Positions 4,185 to 21,268 of a stretch of 64,000 bases of DNA are shown here, in pieces. How positions within the stretch are numbered: the stretch's first letter is position 1; the number at the start of each line of letters is the position of its first letter. The DNA is from Gammaproteobacteria bacterium. GTDB taxonomy: Bacteria > Pseudomonadota > Gammaproteobacteria > Steroidobacterales > Steroidobacteraceae. A program made the position numbers and the translations under genes. The notes beneath the pieces are model-generated. The model ran no database searches, had not been told where the DNA came from, and saw only the letters and a list, made by a program, of their open reading frames with translations. Location of the stretch: NCBI GenBank assembly GCA_947452065.1, contig CANGBB010000001.1:496001-560000 (forward strand), in the 5' to 3' direction.

Positions 4185-5870
4185 TTAGTCTGCCAACGCA
4201 TCAGTTACAGCCCCTTTGGAGGCGCTGCTCACGCTGCGTGCATATTTGGCCAGAACACCGCGTGTGGCGTAGGGGCTTCGCGACTTGCGTGTACGGAGAC
4301 GACGCTGCAACTCGCTTGCTCCCACATCTAACTGCAGCGTGCGGCGTTCAGCGTCAATGGCAATCCGATCGCCATTGCGCACGGCAGCCAGAGGCCCGCC
4401 GACTGCAGCCTCAGGCGTGACGTGGCCGACTACGAAACCATGCGTGCCACCGGAAAAGCGACCATCTGTGAGCAAAGCGACCTTGTTGCCGAGCCCCAGA
4501 CCCATAATGGCCCCGGTTGGGCTCAACATCTCGCGCATTCCGGGCCCGCCCTTGGGTCCTTCATAGCGAATGACCACGACATCCCCCGCCTTGACCTTGC
4601 CGGCCAGGATTGACTGAGTGGCCTGCTCCTCACCATCAAACACGCGGGCCCGGCCCTCGAAACGCAACCCTTCCTTGCCAGTGATCTTGGCCACCGCGCC
4701 CTCGGGCGCCAGATTGCCGTAGAGCACAACCAGATGACTGTCCTTCTTGATGGGGTTAGACAGCGGACGAACGATGACCTGATCAGCCGGGTAATCCCGG
4801 ACCTTCGCCAGGTTCTGCGCCATCGTCCGCCCCGTCACGGTCAGGCAGTCTCCGTGCAGAAGCCCGGCTGACAACAGGCGCTTCATCAGGGGCTGGATGC
4901 CACCGATGGCAATCAGCTCCGACATCGCATAGCGGCCGCTGGGACGGAGGTCGGCCAGCACGGGCACCCGCTTGCCGATGCGTGTGAAGTCATCGAGACC
5001 CAGCCGAACCTCGGCCGCGTGCGCCATTGCAAGCAGATGCAATACGGCATTGGTGGAGCCACCGAGCGCGATAATGACAGTGATGGCGTTCTCGAAGGCC
5101 TTGCGAGTCATGATGTCGCGCGGGCGAATTCCAGCCTTGGTCAGCTTGACCACGGCCTCGCCGGCGCGGCGGCAGTCGTTATGCTTCTGATCGCCCACAG
5201 CCTCCTGGGCGGAACTGCCCGGCAGGCTCATGCCCAGCGCCTCGATCGCCGACGCCATCGTGTTGGCGGTATACATGCCGCCACAGCTTCCAGGGCCCGG
5301 GATGGCCGTACGCTCAACCTCCAGCAGCTCAGCGTCGCTGATCTTGCCCGCGGCGCGGCTGCCAACGGCCTCGAAGACCGAAATAATGTCGCGGCGCTTG
5401 GCACCCAGACGGATGGTGCCGCCGTAGACGAATACCGCGGGCCGGTTGAGGCGCGCAATCGCCATGGCGCAGCCGGGCATGTTCTTGTCGCAGCCACCAA
5501 TGGCCACAATGCCATCGAAGCCCTCTGCCCCTGCAACGGTCTCAATTGAATCGGCGATGACCTCGCGTGACACCAGCGAGTAACGCATGCCGGGCGAACC
5601 CATCGAGATACCGTCCGAGACAGTGATCGTATTGAACAACACAGCCTTGCCGCCGGCCGAATTGGCCCCGGCAGCCGCCTCATGGGCCAATACATCGATG
5701 TGTGTATTGCAGGGCGTCAGGTTGGACCAAGTGCTGGCAATGCCGATCTGTGGCTTGGCGAAGTCAGCATCTTTAAATCCAACGGCCCGCAGCATGGCGC
5801 GCGCCGGAGTCTGCTTGATGCCATCGACCACAAGGCGCGAATAAGCGCGCGGATCCACTTTCTTCGTCAT
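4185..5870 (-). CDS. ilvD: Dihydroxy-acid dehydratase
   Basis: IlvD dehydrates 2,3-dihydroxy-isovalerate and 2,3-dihydroxy-3-methylvalerate to the 2-keto acids of valine and isoleucine, using an Fe-S cluster and Mg2+. The 561-residue protein shows the family cysteine motifs [13 protein letters not shown] (around residue 130) and [14 protein letters not shown] (around 195), an early PCNTH cluster-ligand motif (around 53) and the C-terminal [11 protein letters not shown]. It starts 27 bp after the upstream MFS gene, so it is probably the last gene of an aminopeptidase-transporter-ilvD operon. It is therefore separate from the main ilv-leu operon that diverges from the aminopeptidase gene. Confidence 0.95.
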
Positions 5871-5897
5871 GCTCTATCCTCGGAAAAACTTACAAAA

Positions 5898-7169
5898 TCA
5901 TTGTGCCCGCTGGCGACTCATGCGCACGAAACCGATGCCGCCGGCGACGGCCAACATCGCGGGCAGAGTCAGCGCCGCCATGCCCCATCCACGCTGCCAG
6001 GACTCCAGCAACTCGTAACAGGCCATGCCCAGAGGCGGAGCCAGCAGCCCGCGCACTCCGGTCAGCGTGACATTCACACCCATGTAATGCTGCGCCTGGC
6101 CCAACGACGCGAAGTCGTTGTGACCGAGGTTCCAGCCCAGCTGGGCACCAGCATAGCCCACGCCATTGAGAATTGCCGCCACCCAGAGCAACCACACTTC
6201 GGTGAGCCAGACACCGAGAGCGGCCACGATGATAGCGGAGATAAGCACCCAACACTGGCGCGCGCGATACTGGATGACATGACCCGCATCGAACTGGCGC
6301 GCCCACCACGGCAGACAAAGGGGCATGAGCAAGAGCGGCAACACGGTCAGCAGCCAAATCTGCATCATGCCCGGCAGCTGCATGCGATCCGTGTACAGCA
6401 CAACCAGTTGCGCGCTGGACATCAGGTTGCCGGCTCCATATAGCCCCATCCAAACCATGAACTGTCGATAGTCCGGATCAGCACGCAAGATCTGCCGAAG
6501 GATGCGCAGGTTAAACGCTCCACCATCGGCGTCCGCTTTCAACTCGGCGGCCAACAATTGGTACTCGCGGCGCACGCGCACTGATCGATATAACCATGCA
6601 CCCGCCAACCCACACGCAGCTGCAAACGCGTACAACCAGCGCGCGTATTGCGGATCGCGGTCGATGATGAAACCGGCGCTGACTGCCACCAGTGCGATGC
6701 CGGGGGAACTAACCAAGACCAGACGCCCTGTCATCTGTGCAAGCACACTGCGCGGATAATTAGCGGTCCACACTGCTGAGCGCACGGTCAGGATGCCCGC
6801 CCAGAGAAGGCGCGCGAGGATGACGATACCGATGGTGACGAACAGTCCCGCGGCTCCGAATGGAATGAATGCAAGCAACGCAACGGCCAACGCAAACAAA
6901 GTCTGAATGGAGACGAGGACGCCGACCCGTTGGCGGCCATGCGCGAGATTGGCCCAGGCAAAGCTGGAGATATTGGCCAGAGCCGGCGCACCACTGACCA
7001 TGGCCACGGCCAGGTTGATCCAGGTTGGCGATACGAGTCCGGCGAAACCCTTCTTAACAAGAACTGCAACCGTCGCGCCCTCGACCAAGCCGCTGGTCAT
7101 GCCCAGCAGTGCCCAGGGCAGCACTTCACGCCGGTAGATCCCCTCAGTGAGTGGACTGGGGCGATTCAC
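5898..7169 (-). CDS. Polytopic membrane transporter, MFS-like
   Basis: A 423-residue integral membrane protein with about 12 predicted hydrophobic segments and a charged central loop near residues 200-235, typical of a major facilitator superfamily carrier. N-terminal segments include a Gly/Ala-rich helix followed by a basic loop (AHGRQRVG) resembling the MFS loop 2-3 position. Substrate is unknown. It begins 5 bp after the M17 aminopeptidase and ends 27 bp before ilvD, all on the minus strand, so co-transcription is likely. That context hints at peptide or amino-acid movement, but this is only inference. Confidence 0.75.
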   Translation of the reverse strand: MNRPSPLTEGIYRREVLPWALLGMTSGLVEGATVAVLVKKGFAGLVSPTWINLAVAMVSGAPALANISSFAWANLAHGRQRVGVLVSIQTLFALAVALLAFIPFGAAGLFVTIGIVILARLLWAGILTVRSAVWTANYPRSVLAQMTGRLVLVSSPGIALVAVSAGFIIDRDPQYARWLYAFAAACGLAGAWLYRSVRVRREYQLLAAELKADADGGAFNLRILRQILRADPDYRQFMVWMGLYGAGNLMSSAQLVVLYTDRMQLPGMMQIWLLTVLPLLLMPLCLPWWARQFDAGHVIQYRARQCWVLISAIIVAALGVWLTEVWLLWVAAILNGVGYAGAQLGWNLGHNDFASLGQAQHYMGVNVTLTGVRGLLAPPLGMACYELLESWQRGWGMAALTLPAMLAVAGGIGFVRMSRQRAQ

Positions 7170-7174
7170 CGGAG

Positions 7175-8575
7175 TCAGTGCCCGTAACGCTGTTTAAGCA
7201 GCTCGTACAACGCACGTAAGCAATGTGCTTCAGCGCCGATGGGGCGACCCGGTCTCTCTTTCGAGTTCCAGCCAAACAAATCGATATGGACCCACTCCGT
7301 GTCCGGATTCACGAAACGCTGCAGAAACAGCGCAGCCGTGATTGCACCGGCAAAGCCGCTGCTGGAGACGTTGTTCAGATCCCCGACCCGACTCGCCAGC
7401 TCGTCTTCGTAGCCAGACCAGAGAGGGAGCGGCCAGAGCGGATCGGCTACGGCCTCGCCCGCGGCGCGCAACGCCTGAAGTAGCGAATCACGGTTCGAAA
7501 AGATGGCGGGCAGTTCAGGACCGAGGGCAGTGCGTGCGGCACCCGTAAGAGTGGCCAGATCAATCAACAAGTCCGGCTGTGTTTCACCGGCAAACGTCAG
7601 GGCGTCCGCGAGCACCAGCCGGCCTTCCGCGTCCGTGTTACCGATCTCCACCCGCAGGCCTTTGCGCGAGGGCCACACATCACCGGGTCGATAAGCGCCT
7701 CCGCTGACGCTGTTCTCAACCGCGGGAATCAGAAGCTGCAAATCAATTGCCAGATCGAGCTCGCGCAAGAGCTGCGCCAAGCCCAGCGCACAGGCAGCGC
7801 CACCCATGTCTTTCTTCATCAGAAGCATGCCGGATGGAGGCTTGATATCCAGTCCGCCGGTATCGAAACACACGCCCTTTCCAACCAACACCACCCGTGG
7901 AGCACCCGGGCGCTGCCAGCGACAGTCGATCAGCAGCGGCGCGCGATCACTCCCCTGACCCACGGCACTGATCAGCGGAAAACCCTCTCGCAGCGCTGCG
8001 TGCTGAATTAACTGACACTCACCGCCGCTGCGCCCTGCAAGCTCCGACGCCGCGGCCGCTAACTCAGCCGGGCCCATCAGGTTGGCCGGTGTGTTGATCA
8101 GATCGCGGGTCAGCGACATCGCACGAGCGCACGCATCGGCGTAGCGATAGTCAGCTTGCTCGGGAGGTGTCAGCTGCGCCAAGCGCGGCGAGCGCGGCTC
8201 GCCTTTGAATGCGGTCAATTGATAGCTACCCAGCTTCCAGCCAAGCAGAAACTGGGTGGCACCCGCGGGAGTGAGAGCGGTTTTCAGTGTGTATTCTGCG
8301 GGCGGCAGTCGCTCGGGACAGGCAGCCGCCAGCCACGGATCCAGCGGCTCAGCGGATGGGCCGGCGCCTAAACCTAGAATCGCCCCGGCTACTCCGCCCT
8401 CAGCGTCCGGCCAGGCGACACAACGGTGTCGCTCGCCGCGGAAGTTTTGAGCGTCGAGCCAAGCGCGCATGCCTTCAGGGAGCGATGCACGCACTGCGGG
8501 CCAGTTGGCCTCACCAGCGAGCCACAGGGGCACGCCGACGCGCTGCGGCGCCTCCGACGGGTTGGATGAGTTCAT
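7175..8575 (-). CDS. M17-family leucyl aminopeptidase
   Basis: A 466-residue cytosolic metallo-aminopeptidase that releases N-terminal residues from peptides. The C-terminal catalytic domain carries the two-metal signatures: VGKGVCFDTGGLDIKP with MKKDMGGAA (about residues 225-255) and the M17 signature NTDAEGRLVLADAL (about 310-325), including the Lys, Asp, Glu and Arg residues expected for the binuclear zinc site. The N-terminal domain (1-150) is poorly conserved, as usual for M17. It is slightly shorter than PepA (about 500), closer to the PepB-like group. It is divergent from the ilvC operon and heads the run ending in ilvD. Confidence 0.9.
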   Translation of the reverse strand: MNSSNPSEAPQRVGVPLWLAGEANWPAVRASLPEGMRAWLDAQNFRGERHRCVAWPDAEGGVAGAILGLGAGPSAEPLDPWLAAACPERLPPAEYTLKTALTPAGATQFLLGWKLGSYQLTAFKGEPRSPRLAQLTPPEQADYRYADACARAMSLTRDLINTPANLMGPAELAAAASELAGRSGGECQLIQHAALREGFPLISAVGQGSDRAPLLIDCRWQRPGAPRVVLVGKGVCFDTGGLDIKPPSGMLLMKKDMGGAACALGLAQLLRELDLAIDLQLLIPAVENSVSGGAYRPGDVWPSRKGLRVEIGNTDAEGRLVLADALTFAGETQPDLLIDLATLTGAARTALGPELPAIFSNRDSLLQALRAAGEAVADPLWPLPLWSGYEDELASRVGDLNNVSSSGFAGAITAALFLQRFVNPDTEWVHIDLFGWNSKERPGRPIGAEAHCLRALYELLKQRYGH

Positions 8576-8656: not shown

Positions 8657-8685
8657 TTGACAGCGCCTTTGAGGCATGCTGAACT
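8657..8685 (+). promoter_or_regulatory. Candidate sigma70 promoter of the ilvC-leu operon
   Basis: A perfect -35 hexamer TTGACA (8657-8662) is followed after 17 nt by TGAACT (8680-8685), a weak -10. A start near 8692 would place the leader-peptide Shine-Dalgarno (AAGG) very near the 5' end of the RNA. It lies between the divergent aminopeptidase gene and the leader peptide. The -35 match is strong; the -10 is only 3 of 6. Confidence 0.55.
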
Positions 8686-8702
8686 CGACCCGAAGGTCGT
8701 TT

Positions 8703-8834
8703 ATGAGCAGTAATTTTTCACAACCGCCTCAAATTCAGCCCCGGAACCGCCATAATGCGCGTCCTGTGCTTGCGGGTGCCCTGCTGCCCGTAGGACTGCT
8801 GCTGCCGGTAAACGGCAGCCGGCGCGGGAGTTGA
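8703..8834 (+). CDS. ilv-leu operon leader peptide (attenuation)
   Basis: A 43-residue ORF, ATG start with AAGG about 7 nt upstream, TGA stop. Nine of the 15 residues from 22 to 36 are branched-chain (V22, L23, L27, L28, V30, L32, L33, L34, V36). The run overlaps a hairpin (8801-8819), and an intrinsic terminator follows 40 nt after the stop, before ilvC. This is the layout of ribosome-mediated attenuation: shortage of Leu- or Val-tRNA stalls the ribosome on the leader and lets transcription proceed into ilvC. The peptide itself probably has no other function. It is not similar in sequence to the E. coli ilvL or leuL peptides as I recall them. Confidence 0.75.
   Translation: MSSNFSQPPQIQPRNRHNARPVLAGALLPVGLLLPVNGSRRGS
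8801..8819 (+). promoter_or_regulatory. Leader hairpin overlapping the Leu/Val control codons
   Basis: GCTGCCG (8801-8807) pairs perfectly with CGGCAGC (8813-8819) around a 5-nt loop. It lies over the last Leu and Val codons of the leader peptide, where the 1:2 pause structure of an attenuator is expected. I could not identify a convincing competing antiterminator helix by eye. Confidence 0.5.
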
Positions 8835-8873
8835 ATGCGTAGCCAATACTGAAATCCGCCACGCAGACACCAG

Positions 8874-8912
8874 AACCCCGCTCCGGCCACCGCAGCGGGG
8901 TTCTTCGTTTTT
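8874..8912 (+). terminator. Intrinsic terminator (attenuator) upstream of ilvC
   Basis: AACCCCGCT (8874-8882) pairs perfectly with AGCGGGGTT (8894-8902) across an 11-nt loop and is followed by CTTCGTTTTT. It sits between the leader peptide and ilvC on the coding strand, so read-through must be regulated for the operon to be expressed. Confidence 0.85.
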
Positions 8913-8958
8913 GGATTGCCGTTGGGTTTAGGGAACGTTTTTTACTGGAGTATCGAAG

Positions 8959-9951
8959 ATGCATTTGTATTCGCAGAAAGATGTCGACAAGAAGGCCCTG
9001 AAGGGTGCGCTGATCGCCGTACTGGGTTATGGCAGCCAGGGACGCGCCCATGCGCTGAATCTCAAGGACAGCGGCTTCAAGGTCGTCGTCGGCGTCCGCA
9101 AGGGTGGCAACGGCTGGACGCAGGCCAAGCGTGACGGACTCACCGTGGCGGAACCGCTCAAGGCCGTCGCCGGAGCCGATCTGGTTGCGATGCTGGTGCC
9201 GGATCTGGCCCAGAAGTCCCTGTACAACGAGATCAAAGACGCTCTCAAGCAGAATGCTGTGCTGCTCTTCGCCCACGGCTTCAATGTGCACTTCAAGCAG
9301 ATCAAGCCGCGCAAGGATCTGGATGTCGTCCTGATCGCGCCGAAGGGCCCGGGCGGGCTCGTGCGCCGTCAGTATCAGCAGGGTCGCGGCGTTCCCTGCC
9401 TGATTGCCGTGGCGCAGGACGTCACGCGTAAGGCGCATGCCAAGGCCCTCGCCTATGCCGATGGCATCGGTGGTACCCGCGGCGGCGTGCTGGATACGAC
9501 CTTTGCTGAAGAGACCGAGACCGATCTGTTCGGCGAGCAGGCCGTGCTGTGCGGCGGCGCCACCGAGCTGGTGGTCAAGGGCTTCGAGACGCTGGTCGAG
9601 GCCGGCTATCAGCCTGAGGTCGCCTACTACGAATGTCTGCACGAACTGAAGCTGATTGTTGACCTGCTGCATGAAGGCGGTTTGGCCCGTATGCACAAGT
9701 ACATCAGCGACACGGCGCGCTATGGCGATCTGACGCGCGGTCCTCGCGTGGTGAACAAGGCCACGAAGAAGGAAATGCGCAAGATCCTGGAGGAAATCCA
9801 GACCGGCAAGTTTGCCCGCCAGTGGATCCGCGAGAGCGAGTCCGGCGGCAAGAAGTACAAGCGCATGCTGAAGACGGACATGAATCACCAGATCGAGCGC
9901 GTCGGCACCAAGCTCCGCGCGCGCATGCCCTGGTTGCAGGAATCCCGCTAG
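8959..9951 (+). CDS. ilvC: Ketol-acid reductoisomerase (NADP+), class I
   Basis: IlvC isomerises and reduces acetolactate and acetohydroxybutyrate in valine and isoleucine synthesis, using Mg2+ and NADPH. The 330-residue length is that of short class I enzymes. The N-terminal Rossmann motif is [17 protein letters not shown] (around residue 24-40), and the C-terminal knotted domain carries [22 protein letters not shown] and [14 protein letters not shown] with the acidic metal ligands. It is the first structural gene after the attenuator and 12 bp before leuA. The acetolactate synthase genes are not in this window. Confidence 0.97.
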
Positions 9952-9963
9952 TCAGGAGGCCAC

Positions 9964-11541
9964 ATGGAACCCCACCCCGATCGAGTATTGATTTTCGATA
10001 CCACTCTCCGCGACGGTGAGCAGTCGCCCGGCTGCAGCATGACGCAGCCGGAAAAGCTGCGCATGGCACGTGCGCTGGCTGAGCTGGGTGTCGATATCAT
10101 CGAGGCGGGGTTCCCCTGTGCATCTCGTGGCGACTGGGAGGCCGTCAACGCGGTCGCCCGCGAGGTGCAGGGGCCGATCATCGCGGGCCTGGCTCGCTGC
10201 GTTCGCGATGATATCGAGCTGGCGGCCAAGGCACTGAAGGATGCCGAGCGAAAGCGCATCCACGTGTTTCTGGCCACCAGCGCGATCCATCGCGAGTTCA
10301 AGCTGAACATGGCGCGGGAGGAGATCGTCCGTCGCGCCGTCGAGGGCGTGAAGATCGCGCGTGAATACTGCGACGACATCGAGTTCTCTCCTGAGGATGC
10401 CTCGCGCACGGAATTGGATTTCCTGGCCGAGGTAGTCGAAGCCGTGATCGAGGCCGGCGCAAGCACGGTCAACATTCCGGACACTGTGGGTTACACGGTG
10501 CCGGACGAATTCGGTGAGCTGTTCCGCTATCTCCGCCGCCACGTCCGCGGCATCGACAAAATTCGTCTCTCAGTTCACTGCCACGACGATCTCGGCATGG
10601 CCGTCGCCAATAGCCTGACCGCCGTGGCTGCCGGCGCACGCCAGATCGAGTGCACCATCAATGGCATTGGCGAACGCGCGGGCAACTGCTCGCTTGAAGA
10701 AGTGGTGATGGCGCTGGCGACACGCCAGCAGTTCTTCAAGCTCACCACCGGCGTGCAGACCAATCGTCTCTACCCGACCAGCCGGCTGCTCGCGAGCATC
10801 ACCGGACAGTCGATCCCGCGCAACAAGGCAATCGTCGGCGAGAACGCCTTCGCGCACGAGTCGGGCATCCATCAGCACGGCATGCTCAAGAACGCCTCGA
10901 CTTACGAAATCATGCGACCGGAATCAGTGGGCATGGCGCGTAGCGCGCTGGTGCTCGGCAAGCACAGCGGACGTCATGCTTTCCGTGATCGCGTCAAACA
11001 GTTGGGCTTTGAGCTCGACGAACAAGAATTGAACCGCGTCTTCGAGGAATTCAAGGCGCTGGCCGACAAGAAGAAAGAGCTCTTCGATGGTGACATCGAA
11101 GCGCTGGTGCTGCGGGCCGAGGGCGGCGCGCAGGGTCCCTGGTCGCTGGTCAGCCTCGACCTTGAAAGCCACAGTGGCACGCAGTGCAATGCCAAGGTCC
11201 GGCTGGAGCATATCGACGGGCGCATCGTCGAACATTTGGCCAGCGGCGATGGTCCCGTCGATGCCACGTACAAAGCTATCGAGCAGGCCACTGGCATCGC
11301 CGTGACCGTGCGCAAGTTCGAGGTGCATGCGGTCACCATTGGCGAGGATGCTCAAGGCGAAGCGGTGGTATACGCCGAGCAGAACGAACGGAGCTATCGC
11401 GGTTCAAGCGTCAGCACCAACATCATTGAGGCCAGCGGCAAAGCGCTGCTCGAGATCATCAACCGCATTGAACAATTGGCCCAGAGCCATGCGCGTTCCG
11501 GCGTCGATCGCCGGCCCGCTGCCGCCAGAGGCGGCCTGTAA
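9964..11541 (+). CDS. leuA: 2-isopropylmalate synthase
   Basis: LeuA condenses acetyl-CoA with 2-ketoisovalerate, the committed step to leucine. The 525-residue protein has an HMGL-type TIM barrel (about 1-280) with FDTTLRDGEQSPGCS at residues 11-25, the metal-binding SVHCHDDLGMAVANS (around 200) and GNCSLEEV. A C-terminal LeuA dimer/allosteric domain (about 390-510) follows, where leucine normally binds. A GGAGG Shine-Dalgarno precedes the ATG. The gene lies 12 bp after ilvC and is second in the operon, so leucine feedback on the enzyme and attenuation of the mRNA probably act together. Confidence 0.97.
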   Translation: MEPHPDRVLIFDTTLRDGEQSPGCSMTQPEKLRMARALAELGVDIIEAGFPCASRGDWEAVNAVAREVQGPIIAGLARCVRDDIELAAKALKDAERKRIHVFLATSAIHREFKLNMAREEIVRRAVEGVKIAREYCDDIEFSPEDASRTELDFLAEVVEAVIEAGASTVNIPDTVGYTVPDEFGELFRYLRRHVRGIDKIRLSVHCHDDLGMAVANSLTAVAAGARQIECTINGIGERAGNCSLEEVVMALATRQQFFKLTTGVQTNRLYPTSRLLASITGQSIPRNKAIVGENAFAHESGIHQHGMLKNASTYEIMRPESVGMARSALVLGKHSGRHAFRDRVKQLGFELDEQELNRVFEEFKALADKKKELFDGDIEALVLRAEGGAQGPWSLVSLDLESHSGTQCNAKVRLEHIDGRIVEHLASGDGPVDATYKAIEQATGIAVTVRKFEVHAVTIGEDAQGEAVVYAEQNERSYRGSSVSTNIIEASGKALLEIINRIEQLAQSHARSGVDRRPAAARGGL

Positions 11542-11562
11542 TCGAATTCCGAGGAGTCTGAA

Positions 11563-12522
11563 ATGCCCATTCCCGCGACACAATTCATCTGGTTCAACGG
11601 CAAGCTGGTGCAGTGGGAGAAGGCCACAGTGCATGTTTTATCGCATGCCCTGCACTACGGCTCTTCAGTGTTCGAGGGCGTGCGTGCCTACCAGACACAC
11701 AAGGGCGTGGCGATCTTCCGCTTGCGCGAGCACACGCGTCGTCTGTTTGATTCGGCCAAGATCTATCGCATCACCCTGCCCTACAGCCCCGAGCAAATCG
11801 ATGCCGCCTGCCGTGAAGTGGTCGCAGTTAATGGACTGAGCAAGGGCGCCTATATCCGCCCCATTGCCTTCCGCGGCTATGGCGAAATCGGTGTCGCCCC
11901 AAAGAATGAGCCACCGATCGATGTGGCAGTGGCCGCCTGGGAATGGGGCAAGTATCTGGGCAGCGAGAGCGAGGAACAGGGCGTGGATGTGTGCGTCTCT
12001 TCCTGGCAGCGCGTCGCACCCAACACCCTGCCCGCACTGGCCAAGGCCGGTGGCAACTACCTTTCGAGCCAGCTGATCAGCCTCGAAGCCAAGCGTCTTG
12101 GGTTCGCCGAAGGCATTGGTCTGGCGCCGGACGGCACCGTCAGCGAGGGTGCGGGCGAGAACTTGTTCGTGATCAAGGACGGTGTGATTCTGACGCCGGG
12201 CCTCGCGCATTCGGCACTGGCTGGCATCACGCGCGACACGGTCATCCGCCTGGCGCGTGAGCGTGGCTACGAGGTGCGTGAGGCCTCCATCCCGCGCGAG
12301 ATGCTCTATATCGCTGACGAACTCTTCTTCACTGGTACGGCTGCCGAAGTCACGCCGATTCGCTCGGTGGATCGTATTCAAGTAGGTGCTGGCCGGCGCG
12401 GCCCAATCACTCAGATTCTGCAGCAGGCGTTCTTTGGCCTGTTTAACGGCACCACCGAGGACAAACTTGGCTGGTTGGATCACGTCGACATGCAAGCCAA
12501 GCCGCAAGTCGTTGCAGGGTAA
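11563..12522 (+). CDS. ilvE: Branched-chain amino acid aminotransferase
   Basis: IlvE transfers the amino group from glutamate to the 2-keto acids of Val, Ile and Leu, using PLP. This 319-residue fold-type IV aminotransferase shows the N-terminal [20 protein letters not shown] (about 26-45), the PLP lysine in [12 protein letters not shown] (about 160-171), and [24 protein letters not shown]-like Shine-Dalgarno precedes the ATG. It sits between leuA and leuC, giving the operon the final transamination step for all three branched-chain amino acids. Confidence 0.95.
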
Positions 12523-12527
12523 ATCGC

Positions 12528-13928
12528 ATGAAGACGATGTTTCAGAAAATCTGGGAGCGCCACGAGGTCGTCCCAGAGACTGCGGACACGCCGGCGGTGC
12601 TGTACATCGACCTGCACCTGATCCACGAGGTGACAACGCCGCAGGCGTTCACACTGCTGCGTGAGCGCGGACTGAAGGTGCGCCGCCCCGACCGCACCTT
12701 CGCAACCATGGATCATTCCACGCCCACGCGTACAGAACAGGTCTTTGGCGGCGTGCCATTTTCGATTGAGTCGGCCGCCAAACAGGTGCGTCAGCTGGAA
12801 ATCAACTGTCGCGACTTTGGAGTGGAGCTGCTGCATTTGCAGCATGACCAGCGCGGCATCGTGCACATCGTCGGTCCTGAACAGGGACTGACTCAACCGG
12901 GCAAGACTGTCGTCTGCGGGGACAGCCATACAAGCACTCACGGTGCTTTCGGCGCCCTCGCCTTCGGTATCGGCACCACCGAAGTGGGCCACGTGCTGGC
13001 CACGCAATGTCTGTTGCAGCGTCGACCCAGCACCTTCGCCATCAATGTCAGCGGCAAGCTGGCCTCTGGCGTCAGCGCCAAGGACATGATCCTCGCGATC
13101 ATCGGTGAGATTGGCGTGTCCGGTGGCACCGGTTCGGTGATCGAGTATCGCGGCAGCGCGGTGCAGGCGCTGTCGATGGACGAGCGCATGACGGTCTGCA
13201 ATATGTCTATCGAGGCTGGCGCGCGCGCCGGGCTGATTGCGCCGGATGATACGACCTTCGCTTATCTGGAGCGTACGCCGCGTGCGCCGAAGGGATCTGA
13301 CTGGACCCGCGCGCTGGCTGATTGGCGCACTCTCCCCTCAGACTCGGGCGCGAAGTTTGATCGCGAGATCACTCTCGACGGTCATCACATCGAACCGATG
13401 ATCACCTACGGGACCCATCCCGGCATGGTGATTCCAGTTAGCGGCACTGTCCCGGTGAAGCGCAATGACCCAGTCTTTGACAAGGCACTGGCCTACATGG
13501 GCCTGCAGCCGGGTCAACCGATCCGCGAACAGCCAATCAATGTCGTATTCATTGGAAGCTGCACCAACGGACGTTTGGAAGATCTGCGCGCCGCAGCCAG
13601 CGTTTTGCGCGGCCACAAGGTGGCCTCAGGCGTGCGAATGTTGGTCGTGCCAGGCTCACAGCCCGTCAAGCGCGCAGCGGAGGCCGAAGGGCTGGATCGG
13701 ATCTTTACCGAAGCGGGTGCGGAGTGGCGCGAGTCCGGCTGCTCGATGTGCATCGGCATGAACGGCGATAACGTCGGCCGCGGCCAGTACAGCGTGAGCA
13801 CCAGCAACCGCAATTTTGAAGGCCGTCAGGGCCAAGGCGCCCGGACCTTGCTCGCCAGTCCCTTAACCGCAGCGGCCTCGGCCGTTCGCGGCCGGGTAAC
13901 TGATGCGCGCGAGTTGCTCAACGGCTGA
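12528..13928 (+). CDS. leuC: 3-isopropylmalate dehydratase, large subunit
   Basis: LeuC carries the [4Fe-4S] cluster that isomerises 2- to 3-isopropylmalate via isopropylmaleate, in complex with LeuD. The 466-residue protein has the aconitase-family motifs [24 protein letters not shown] (residues about 128-151, quoted in parts: [10 protein letters not shown] and GIGTTE) and the cluster cysteines in [14 protein letters not shown] (about 345) and [10 protein letters not shown] (about 405). It starts 5 bp after ilvE and precedes leuD by 26 bp. Confidence 0.97.
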
Positions 13929-13954
13929 AACACTGAACACGAGGCATCGACTCC

Positions 13955-14530
13955 GTGGAACCCATAAAGCAGATCCGTAGCCGCACTGCCGTGCTGCCCT
14001 ATACCAACATCGATACCGACCAGATTATCCCGGCACGGTTTCTGACGACCACTTCGCGCGCAGGCTTGGGCGCATCGCTGTTCGCTGACTGGCGCTACGA
14101 CGAACAGGGCACACCCAAGGCGGACTTTCCGCTGAATCAGTCGGCAACACAGGGCTGCCGGGTACTGGTGGCCGGGCGCAATATCGGCTGCGGCTCATCG
14201 CGCGAACATGCGCCGTGGGCCCTGCTCGATTACGGCTTTCAGGCGGTAATCAGCACTGAGATCGCGGACATCTTCCGCAACAATTCACTTAAGAACGGAC
14301 TGTTGCCAGTTGTGGTCGACGAGGCCACGGCGACTTGGCTGCTGGCCAACCCCGGCGTCGAGGTGACCATTGATCTGGAGAGCGGAACCTTGGGCTTGCC
14401 GGATGGCAAGAAGGTTCCCTTTCCGCTTGAGGGTTTCGCGCGCTATTGCCTGATGAATGGTGTCGACGAACTGGGCTTTCTGCTCTCGCGCGATGCCGCC
14501 ATCAGCACCTACGAAAAGGCTCACGCATGA
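13955..14530 (+). CDS. leuD: 3-isopropylmalate dehydratase, small subunit
   Basis: The swivel-domain partner of LeuC. The 191-residue protein begins at GTG (13955) and contains [13 protein letters not shown] (about 13-25) and [21 protein letters not shown] (in parts: [15 protein letters not shown], about 70-85), hallmarks of LeuD. The stop codon overlaps the leuB start in an ATGA arrangement, which suggests translational coupling. A GAGG-like Shine-Dalgarno lies about 10 nt before the GTG. Confidence 0.96.
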
Positions 14531-15612
14531 AGGCGCGTATTGCAGTCATCGGCGGCGACGGTATCGGTCCGGAAGTCACGGCCGAAGCTGTGCGGGTCCT
14601 GCGCCGTGTCGCACAGCACCGTGGCCACGACTTCACGCTCACCGAAAGGCCTTTCGGCGGCATCGCAATCGATCAGACCGGCGACCCTCTTCCGGCCGAT
14701 ACGTTGAGCGAGTGTCTGGCGGCGGATGCGGTGTTGCTCGGGGCGATCGGCGGGCCGAAGTGGTCGGATCCGAAGGCCAAGGTGCGTCCTGAACAGGGGC
14801 TTTTGCGGCTGCGAAAGGAACTTGGCGTCTACGCTAATCTGCGTCCGGTACGCCTGCACCCTGCGCTGCGCGATGCCTCAACACTCAAGCCTGAAGTACT
14901 CGACGGCGTTGACCTAATCTTCGTTCGCGAACTGATCGGCGGCATTTATTTTGGCGCCAAGACCCGCACTGCAACTGATGCAACGGATCTATGCAGTTAC
15001 TCCGTACCCGAAATCGAACGCATCGTACGTGTGGCCGCGAAACTGGCGCGCGCTCGCAGCGGACGACTCATGTCCATCGACAAAGCGAATGTGCTCGAAA
15101 CATCGCGTCTTTGGCGCGAAGTCTGCACTCGCGTGATGAAGGAAGAATTTCCTGACGTAAAGCTGGAGCACCAGCTGGTGGATTCGGCCGCCATGTTGCT
15201 CATCCGCAAGCCGCGCGATATCGATGTGGCCGTGACCGAAAACATGTTCGGTGACATCCTCACCGATGAGGCGTCGATGCTCGCCGGTTCGCTCGGTCTC
15301 CTGCCCTCAGCCTCGCTGGGCGATGGCAACCGCGGTCTTTATGAGCCGATTCATGGATCGGCACCCGACATCGCTGGCCAAGGCATCGCCAACCCTGCTG
15401 GCGCGATTCTCAGTGCGGCGCTCCTGTTGCGTCACTCGCTCGGACTGGAAGCCGAAGCCGTCGCCGTGGAGAAGGCCGTCGCTCAGGTACTGGCCGATGG
15501 CGTGCGCACACCGGACATCGCAGTGCCGGGTACTGCGCCCGCCAGTACCGCCGATGTCGGTGCAGCCGTGTGCGCTGCACTGGATCGGCTGCTCACGGCC
15601 AATAAGGGTTAA
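14527..15612 (+). CDS. leuB: 3-isopropylmalate dehydrogenase
   Basis: LeuB oxidises and decarboxylates 3-isopropylmalate with NAD+ to 2-ketoisocaproate. I place the start at the ATG at 14527, overlapping leuD by 4 nt, because the protein then begins [17 protein letters not shown] like other LeuB proteins; an upstream in-frame start at 14446 would add 27 unrelated residues. The 361-residue product contains [26 protein letters not shown] and the NAD-site [20 protein letters not shown] (C-terminal third). It is the last leucine gene of the operon. Confidence 0.96.
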
Positions 15613-21050: not shown

Positions 21051-21163
21051 GTACCGCCAGACTCCGGAACCGGTTTCACCGACTCAACGGAAAACACCTG
21101 CTGCAGGGGTGAGGCGTGCCGGGTAACGACCGGCGAGACGCGAGGCCGCGTCCCGGATACACG

Positions 21164-21261
21164 CTCATCTGCCGGCTTGCGCCGCAGGAGTTGGCACCAC
21201 TTCGGTGATCCGATGGTTGCCCCGGCGTCGAAGGGCCTTTCCCTCAGCCGGTCTCGATGAG
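21164..21261 (-). ncRNA. SAM-I (S-box) riboswitch
   Basis: Read 5' to 3' on the minus strand, P1 is formed by CTCATC (21261-21256) and GATGAG (21169-21164). Between them are the S-box core elements CTGAGGGA, GGCCC, GCCGGGGCAACC and GGTGCCAACTCC in the right order. The aptamer begins right after a sigma70 promoter and ends about 113 nt before the metX start, so it should reduce metXB expression when S-adenosylmethionine is plentiful. The expression platform is less clear: a hairpin of CACC and GGTG arms around 21095-21115, followed by TTTT, could be a terminator. Confidence 0.9.
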
Positions 21262-21268
21262 TCAGCAA

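Follow-up and report, generated by a model that had tools for sequence, protein, structure and literature searches.

Transcription attenuators that respond to amino acids have been described in several bacteria, and some of these are close counterparts of the locus analysed here. In the trp scheme, as presented in the part of the source available to us, segment 2 is held by segment 1 (PMC1183508). In the leuA attenuator of Shewanella, half of the antiterminator stem also serves to form an anti-antiterminator, according to the accessible portion of its description (PMC2659441). The available text on the ilvBNC attenuator of C. glutamicum has transcription begin a single nucleotide away from the start codon of the leader, and reports an 80% decrease in expression upon replacement of the leader ATG (PMC11857589). 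Similarly, the leader mRNA of S. meliloti trpL begins at the ATG of trpL (PMC7298713, partial text).

This study concerns the region preceding ilvC in a 64,000-nt stretch of DNA (the window) from a member of the Steroidobacteraceae. Judging from its sequence, this region very probably controls the ilvC-leuA-ilvE-leuCDB operon by ribosome-mediated transcription attenuation sensing leucine. Proteobacterial attenuators have reportedly been surveyed by Vitreschak and others. Searches of open PMC text brought up no title on an ilvC attenuator in Steroidobacteraceae. The site appears to be a new and well-conserved instance of a textbook mechanism, ordinary in kind and well supported by comparison with relatives. 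It supplies the family of Steroidobacter, much of which is known from metagenome bins, with a specific rule for leucine synthesis that can be put to the test.

Organization of the locus and its RNA elements

The features of the leader region and the operon are listed in Table 1. The six genes of the operon are separated by gaps of no more than 26 nt or overlap, and the database matches of all six bear out the identities proposed for them in a first-pass annotation of the window. The leader ORF, hairpin 1:2 and the terminator are all located between this operon and a divergent set of minus-strand genes (positions 4200-8575), comprising ilvD and the genes of an MFS transporter and an M17 aminopeptidase. 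Because of the orientation of this set, ilvD adjoins the attenuated operon but stands outside it. Moreover, since the upstream neighbour lies on the opposite strand, there is no plus-strand gene immediately 5′ that would need the terminator, which counts in favour of an attenuator.

Table 1. Features of the ilvC leader region and operon in the window.
Feature	Position	Strand	Description	Basis
Predicted promoter	8657..8685	+	TTGACA (8657-8662), 17-nt spacer, TGAACT (8680-8685)	
Leader peptide ORF	8703..8834	+	MSSNFSQPPQIQPRNRHNARPVLAGALLPVGLLLPVNGSRRGS; 43 aa, ATG to TGA, stop TGA 8832-8834	translation predicted
Control region	8781..8804	+	CTG CTG (8781-8786), CTG CTG CTG (8796-8804)	
Hairpin 1:2	8801..8819	+	over last control codons; 7 bp, 5-nt loop	folding; covariation in relatives
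S2	8818..8828	+	antiterminator 5′ strand, GCCGGCGCGGG; within last codons of leader ORF	complement search
Linker hairpin	8836..8865	+	just 3′ of leader stop	folding; linker helices covary in relatives
Intrinsic terminator	8872..8912	+	11-bp stem 8872-8904, 11-nt loop, tail 8905-8912 TCGTTTTT	
S3	8877..8887	+	antiterminator 3′ strand and terminator 5′ arm, CCCGCTCCGGC	complement search
Operon	8959..15612	+	ilvC, leuA, ilvE, leuC, leuD, leuB	NCBIfam equivalogs or subfamilies over cut-off; spacing

On the minus strand, a 395-codon open frame (8701-9888) runs antisense over ilvC and the leader; it is probably a by-product of GC-rich coding sequence. Elsewhere in the window, also on the minus strand, a SAM riboswitch (RF00162, 77.7 bits; 21162-21263) is located upstream of genes encoding an alpha/beta hydrolase, metX-like as judged by eye, and a Cys/Met PLP enzyme.

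Three elements of the leader reported in the first-pass annotation were recovered exactly: (i) the 43-codon ORF with AAGG just upstream, (ii) its nine branched-chain codons in residues 22-36 (6 Leu and 3 Val) and (iii) hairpin 1:2, for which folding of 8796-8820 gave -14.3 kcal/mol. The terminator described before ilvC is likewise present, with a stem slightly larger than the 9 bp given for it. A generic terminator scan, which allows loops of 3-8 nt only, found none at the site.

The antiterminator, which the annotation had not seen, was revealed by a complement search: S2 pairs with S3 at 10 of 11 positions, a complement equalled in 3 of 200 base shuffles. The helix contains one C-U mismatch, absent in many relatives. 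S2 ends 3 nt before the leader stop codon, and the linker hairpin brings S2 and S3 together. As the antiterminator and the terminator share S3, the two pairings are mutually exclusive. The segment 8690-8925 (236 nt) folds better than shuffled sequence (z -2.5), an equally good fold being reached by 1 shuffle in 200. Folding of the competing structures, which had been suggested as a check, favoured the terminator over the antiterminator by 3.3 kcal/mol in the full 8796-8912 RNA (2.5 kcal/mol with the RNA free from 8818). The antiterminator strands are transcribed before S4, the strand with which S3 pairs in the terminator, and when folding of the window's leader is halted before S4 the antiterminator forms.

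Predicted leader peptide, promoter and translation start

Among 1000 dinucleotide shuffles of positions 8692-8872, 5 contained a 15-codon stretch with at least nine Leu, Ile or Val codons in any plus-strand frame; the richness in these codons is therefore suggestive by itself, not decisive. An overlapping short ORF, MRVLCLRVPCCP, was considered as the leader and dropped, because the frame at 8703-8834 is the one that keeps its phase in relatives.

Transcription is predicted to start near position 8692. The -10 hexamer of the window is weak (3 of 6 consensus matches) and the promoter scan rejected this candidate; a perfect TTGACA is found at the equivalent place in 37 of the 38 aligned leaders described below. 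A Shine-Dalgarno-like motif precedes 32 of the 38 ilvC starts and 2 of the 38 leader starts (the AAGG of the window being one of the two), against about 9% by chance. Leader start codons were picked by a script; for 9 of the 37 leaders with a script-called promoter (L049 had none), the chosen codon falls between -3 and +6 relative to the transcription start predicted. The leaders are thus likely to be translated independently of a Shine-Dalgarno sequence, and sometimes from leaderless mRNA. C. glutamicum ilvBNC and S. meliloti trpL, in the portions of the reports available, provide precedents for such near-leaderless starts (PMC11857589, PMC7298713).

Conservation among relatives

Of 60 related genomes, 57 yielded an IlvC, and 80 further loci were added. 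By a fixed rule, a terminator was identified upstream of 58 of the 108 distinct ilvC loci, and of 43 of the 50 whose IlvC identity is at least 73%. These 50 loci are L001-L052 minus the duplicates L032 and L041, and the full layout is present in 38 of them. Alignment A2 consists of 38 of the 50 loci, selected for showing both the terminator and S2. It leaves out L019, L022, L023, L024, L027, L028, L029, L030, L034, L038, L043 and L044, of which L023 and L024 offered just 108 and 3 nt of upstream sequence, while L030, though left out, matches the covariance model R1 (see below).

The branched-chain-rich frame (rich in Leu; in Val in two cases) keeps one phase relative to S2 in 37 of the 38 leaders, and in these 37 the leader stop is placed exactly 3, 9, 15 or 21 nt after S2. 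When RNA from S2 onward was folded and the fold halted before S4, S2 and S3 paired in all 38 leaders; with S4 included, 31 adopted the terminator fold and 7 the antiterminator. The CCCCGC of S3 is invariant throughout. RNAalifold applied to A2 detected the terminator and, when the alignment was cut at the end of S3, five S2:S3 pairs; no conserved structure that would occupy S2 ahead of the synthesis of S3 emerged. Relatives thus keep the ORF, its phase, the -35 box, the antiterminator and the terminator, which lends strong support to the proposal of a leader peptide with an attenuator; a lack of conservation, which would have refuted it, was not what the comparison showed. Among leuA-bearing loci, L020, L035 and L161 have a Leu-poor leader or none, yet carry the terminator, and L027 and L028 are without a convincing leader.

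Model R1 was built from 15 relatives, with the window excluded, and represents hairpin 1:2, the antiterminator and the linker as 27 pairs. It matched the window's site with 50.4 bits (E 1e-12), the other two matches in the window having E values of 0.5 or worse, and so recognises the putative attenuator where Rfam, at its thresholds, reports nothing at the leader site. At E≤0.01, R1 matched 147 of the 217 genomes of the family (82 of the 114 of good quality), and 70 of the 217 were without a match. The positions of 138 best R1 sites among those listed were compared with ilvC; 29 had no listed ilvC row, and 107 of the 109 comparable sites precede ilvC by 21-161 nt in the same orientation, among the matches listed. 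The two exceptions, not just before ilvC, are close to contig ends (45 nt in G025 and 618 nt in G213), and G213 has a second ilvC match outside the matches listed.

Across the whole source genome, the sole other R1 match at E≤1 (E 0.10) is located near unrelated genes, and a second attenuator was therefore rejected. The 450 nt before ilvB and the 350 nt before ilvD contain no terminator detectable by script, and at most 7 Leu, Ile or Val codons in any 15.

Within the training alignment of R1, 86.9% of cells pair, compared with 38-47% when the partners are slid, and 9 pairs show changes in both partners. For covariation, R1 matches were collected from 53 sources (L042 gave none) and the best row per locus was kept. 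Fifty-one distinct matches did not belong to the training set, and across them all four helices surpass their shuffles. For the 24 of these outside the most-sampled genus, both-side changes numbered 21 in hairpin 1:2 (6.6 by shuffle), 19 and 11 in the linker helices (5.6 and 2.3) and just 4 in the antiterminator (1.1), all in an alignment fitted to R1, which favours such counts. Almost no covariation is seen in the antiterminator because this helix is nearly invariant.

Amino acid specificity

Leu accounts for 36% of the codons before S2 in the 36 leaders of leuA-bearing operons. Relative to ten genes of the window, Leu codons are enriched 3.16-fold in these leaders, with Val at 1.00-fold and Ile at 0.56-fold. 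At least four Leu codons occur within the 20 or fewer codons before S2 in 35 of the 38 leaders, and in the leuA-type leaders they are most frequent at 4-7 and 11-13 codons from the S2 core, on its 5′ side.

The composition of the leaders varies with the operon. The Leu, Val and Ile shares of branched-chain codons are 0.76, 0.18 and 0.06 in leuA-type leaders, and 0.49, 0.27 and 0.24 in 17 leaders preceding ilvD or ilvG (all 16 ilvD-first among 28 sites, plus E. coli ilvL before ilvG; 11 ilvC-first sites were left out). The difference in Leu share between these two groups is significant by the Mann-Whitney test when shared ancestry is ignored (p 3e-6). In five Steroidobacter leaders before ilvC-ilvE-leuC without leuA, hand-picked as Val/Ile-rich from the 11 distinct loci of this type that were read, the shares are 0.11, 0.60 and 0.29; of the other loci, L145 leans to Ile and five (L038, L150, L151, L152 and L160) are without a convincing leader. 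Most of the leuA-less loci read either have a Val-rich leader or have none. The relatives hence form a natural experiment on a change of amino acid specificity, in which the RNA core stays and the codons vary with operon content.

Several side observations concern these lineages. The Steroidobacter-type loci without leuA (L143-L148, L042 and L046) have the same antiterminator core preceded by a leader rich in Val/Ile, a pattern that may represent one event. No convincing Leu leader was found in the ilvC-leuC-leuD-leuB loci read; genus g7 (L153-L159) has this gene order and a convincing leader in none of its seven loci read, with L154 retaining a terminator-like hairpin, perhaps a relic. In L009, L011 and L016, ilvC and leuA are about 1.1 kb apart, and the intervening sequence does not match the window's ilvE. 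GTA represents 29 of the 67 Val codons in the A2 leaders, compared with 25 of 325 in the ten window genes; RNA constraint and rare-codon sensing are candidate explanations.

Proposed mechanism and alternative explanations

The computations place together a Leu-rich ORF, a terminator before the first gene and an antiterminator that excludes it. We infer the following course of events. RNA polymerase would begin near 8692 and a ribosome would translate the leader. When leucine is short, the ribosome would stall on the CTG runs and open hairpin 1:2, leaving S2 free; S2 would then pair with S3 before S4 is made, no terminator would form, and ilvC-leuA-ilvE-leuCDB would be transcribed. A ribosome at the leader stop codon would instead mask S2, and in the terminating state S3 would pair with S4 and the transcript would end in the T-rich tail (8905-8912). 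Given the size of the ribosome footprint, the geometry fits both a stall that frees S2 and a stop that masks it: the last Leu codon lies mostly 3-4 codons before the S2 core, and the stop 3-21 nt after S2.

The state of the leader in the absence of a ribosome is less uniform. Hairpin 1:2 shares just 2 nt with S2 and can coexist with the antiterminator. When RNA was folded without a ribosome up to S3, S2:S3 pairing had a probability above 0.5 for 20 of 37 leaders, with a value of 0.63 for the window; none of four E. coli leaders, whose segments were script-picked (that of hisL being doubtful), exceeded 0.5. As long as S3 has not been made, however, S2 is mostly paired with upstream sequence in such folds (36 of the 37 leaders). 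The ribosome-free folds thus disagree on the default state; if the default-on reading is true, attenuation works here without an anti-antiterminator hairpin.

Two other interpretations were weighed. The first-pass annotation had proposed that the same attenuator senses leucine and valine together, in line with the three Val codons in residues 22-36 of the window's leader and with the role of ilvC and ilvE in valine synthesis as well. Joint control is not supported by the 36 leuA-type leaders, where Val stands at background against the marked enrichment of Leu, and 7 of the 38 leaders lack any Val in the codons before S2; we consider it unlikely. Since Leu is enriched in these leaders and Val and Ile are not, codon composition makes control by leucine alone the likelier of the two.

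The hairpin before ilvC might, on the other hand, be a constitutive terminator or a processing hairpin, with the Leu-rich ORF a by-product of a CTG-rich hairpin. CTG repeats would indeed serve hairpin 1:2 equally well, and L152, L160 and L161 keep the terminator without a convincing leader. This would leave unexplained why the phase, the stop position, the positions of Leu codons and the S2:S3 pairing are all kept, and why other lineages place Val runs or mixed Ile/Leu/Val codons before the same RNA core, which makes such an origin highly improbable.

Comparison with known attenuators

The locus shares with the Shewanella leuA attenuator a Leu-rich leader peptide, a terminator and an antiterminator before a leucine operon; the Shewanella system is described, in the available part of its account, with an anti-antiterminator that uses half of the stem, while here the only overlap of hairpin 1:2 with S2 is that noted above (PMC2659441). 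C. glutamicum ilvBNC is also a branched-chain attenuator with a near-leaderless start, but the accessible text describes Val-led control in an actinobacterium (PMC11857589). S. meliloti trpL differs in its tryptophan codons and in preceding trpE(G) (PMC7298713, partial text).

The best Rfam match of the region is Leu_leader (RF00512), the family of E. coli leuL, which similarly places a Leu-rich leader before the leucine operon. The score of 16.6 bits (E 0.57) is far below the gathering score of 50. R1 gave no match to E. coli leuL or hisL at E≤1, and matched trpL with an E value of 0.62.

R1 matches E. coli ilvL, of the ilvGMEDA operon, with 23.8 bits (E 2.5e-4). The ilvL S2 core (CCGTGCGGGG), S3 (CCCCGCACCG) and S2 codon phase (phase 0) correspond to those of the relatives, and its own stop lies 24 nt after S2. 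We refer to elements with this S2/S3 core and codon phase as "ilvL-like", a class defined in this analysis; the window differs from the core by one base on each strand. The best 15 codons of ilvL contain 3 Leu, 6 Val and 3 Ile and the operon is led by ilvG, whereas the window has Leu codons and an ilvC-leuA operon. Most Xanthomonad sites preceding ilvD differ in the phase in which S2 is read.

It is a tentative possibility, which we rate as rather doubtful, that a single RNA core, the one also present in E. coli ilvL, persisted across the gammaproteobacteria while its control codons were swapped to match the operon. The swaps might then, no less tentatively, pair Leu with ilvC-leuA, Val/Ile with the Steroidobacter ilvC-ilvE-leuCDB operons without leuA, and mixed Ile/Leu/Val with ilvD. 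As R1 matches ilvL but not leuL, the window's element is akin to ilvL at the RNA level and to leuL in codon content.
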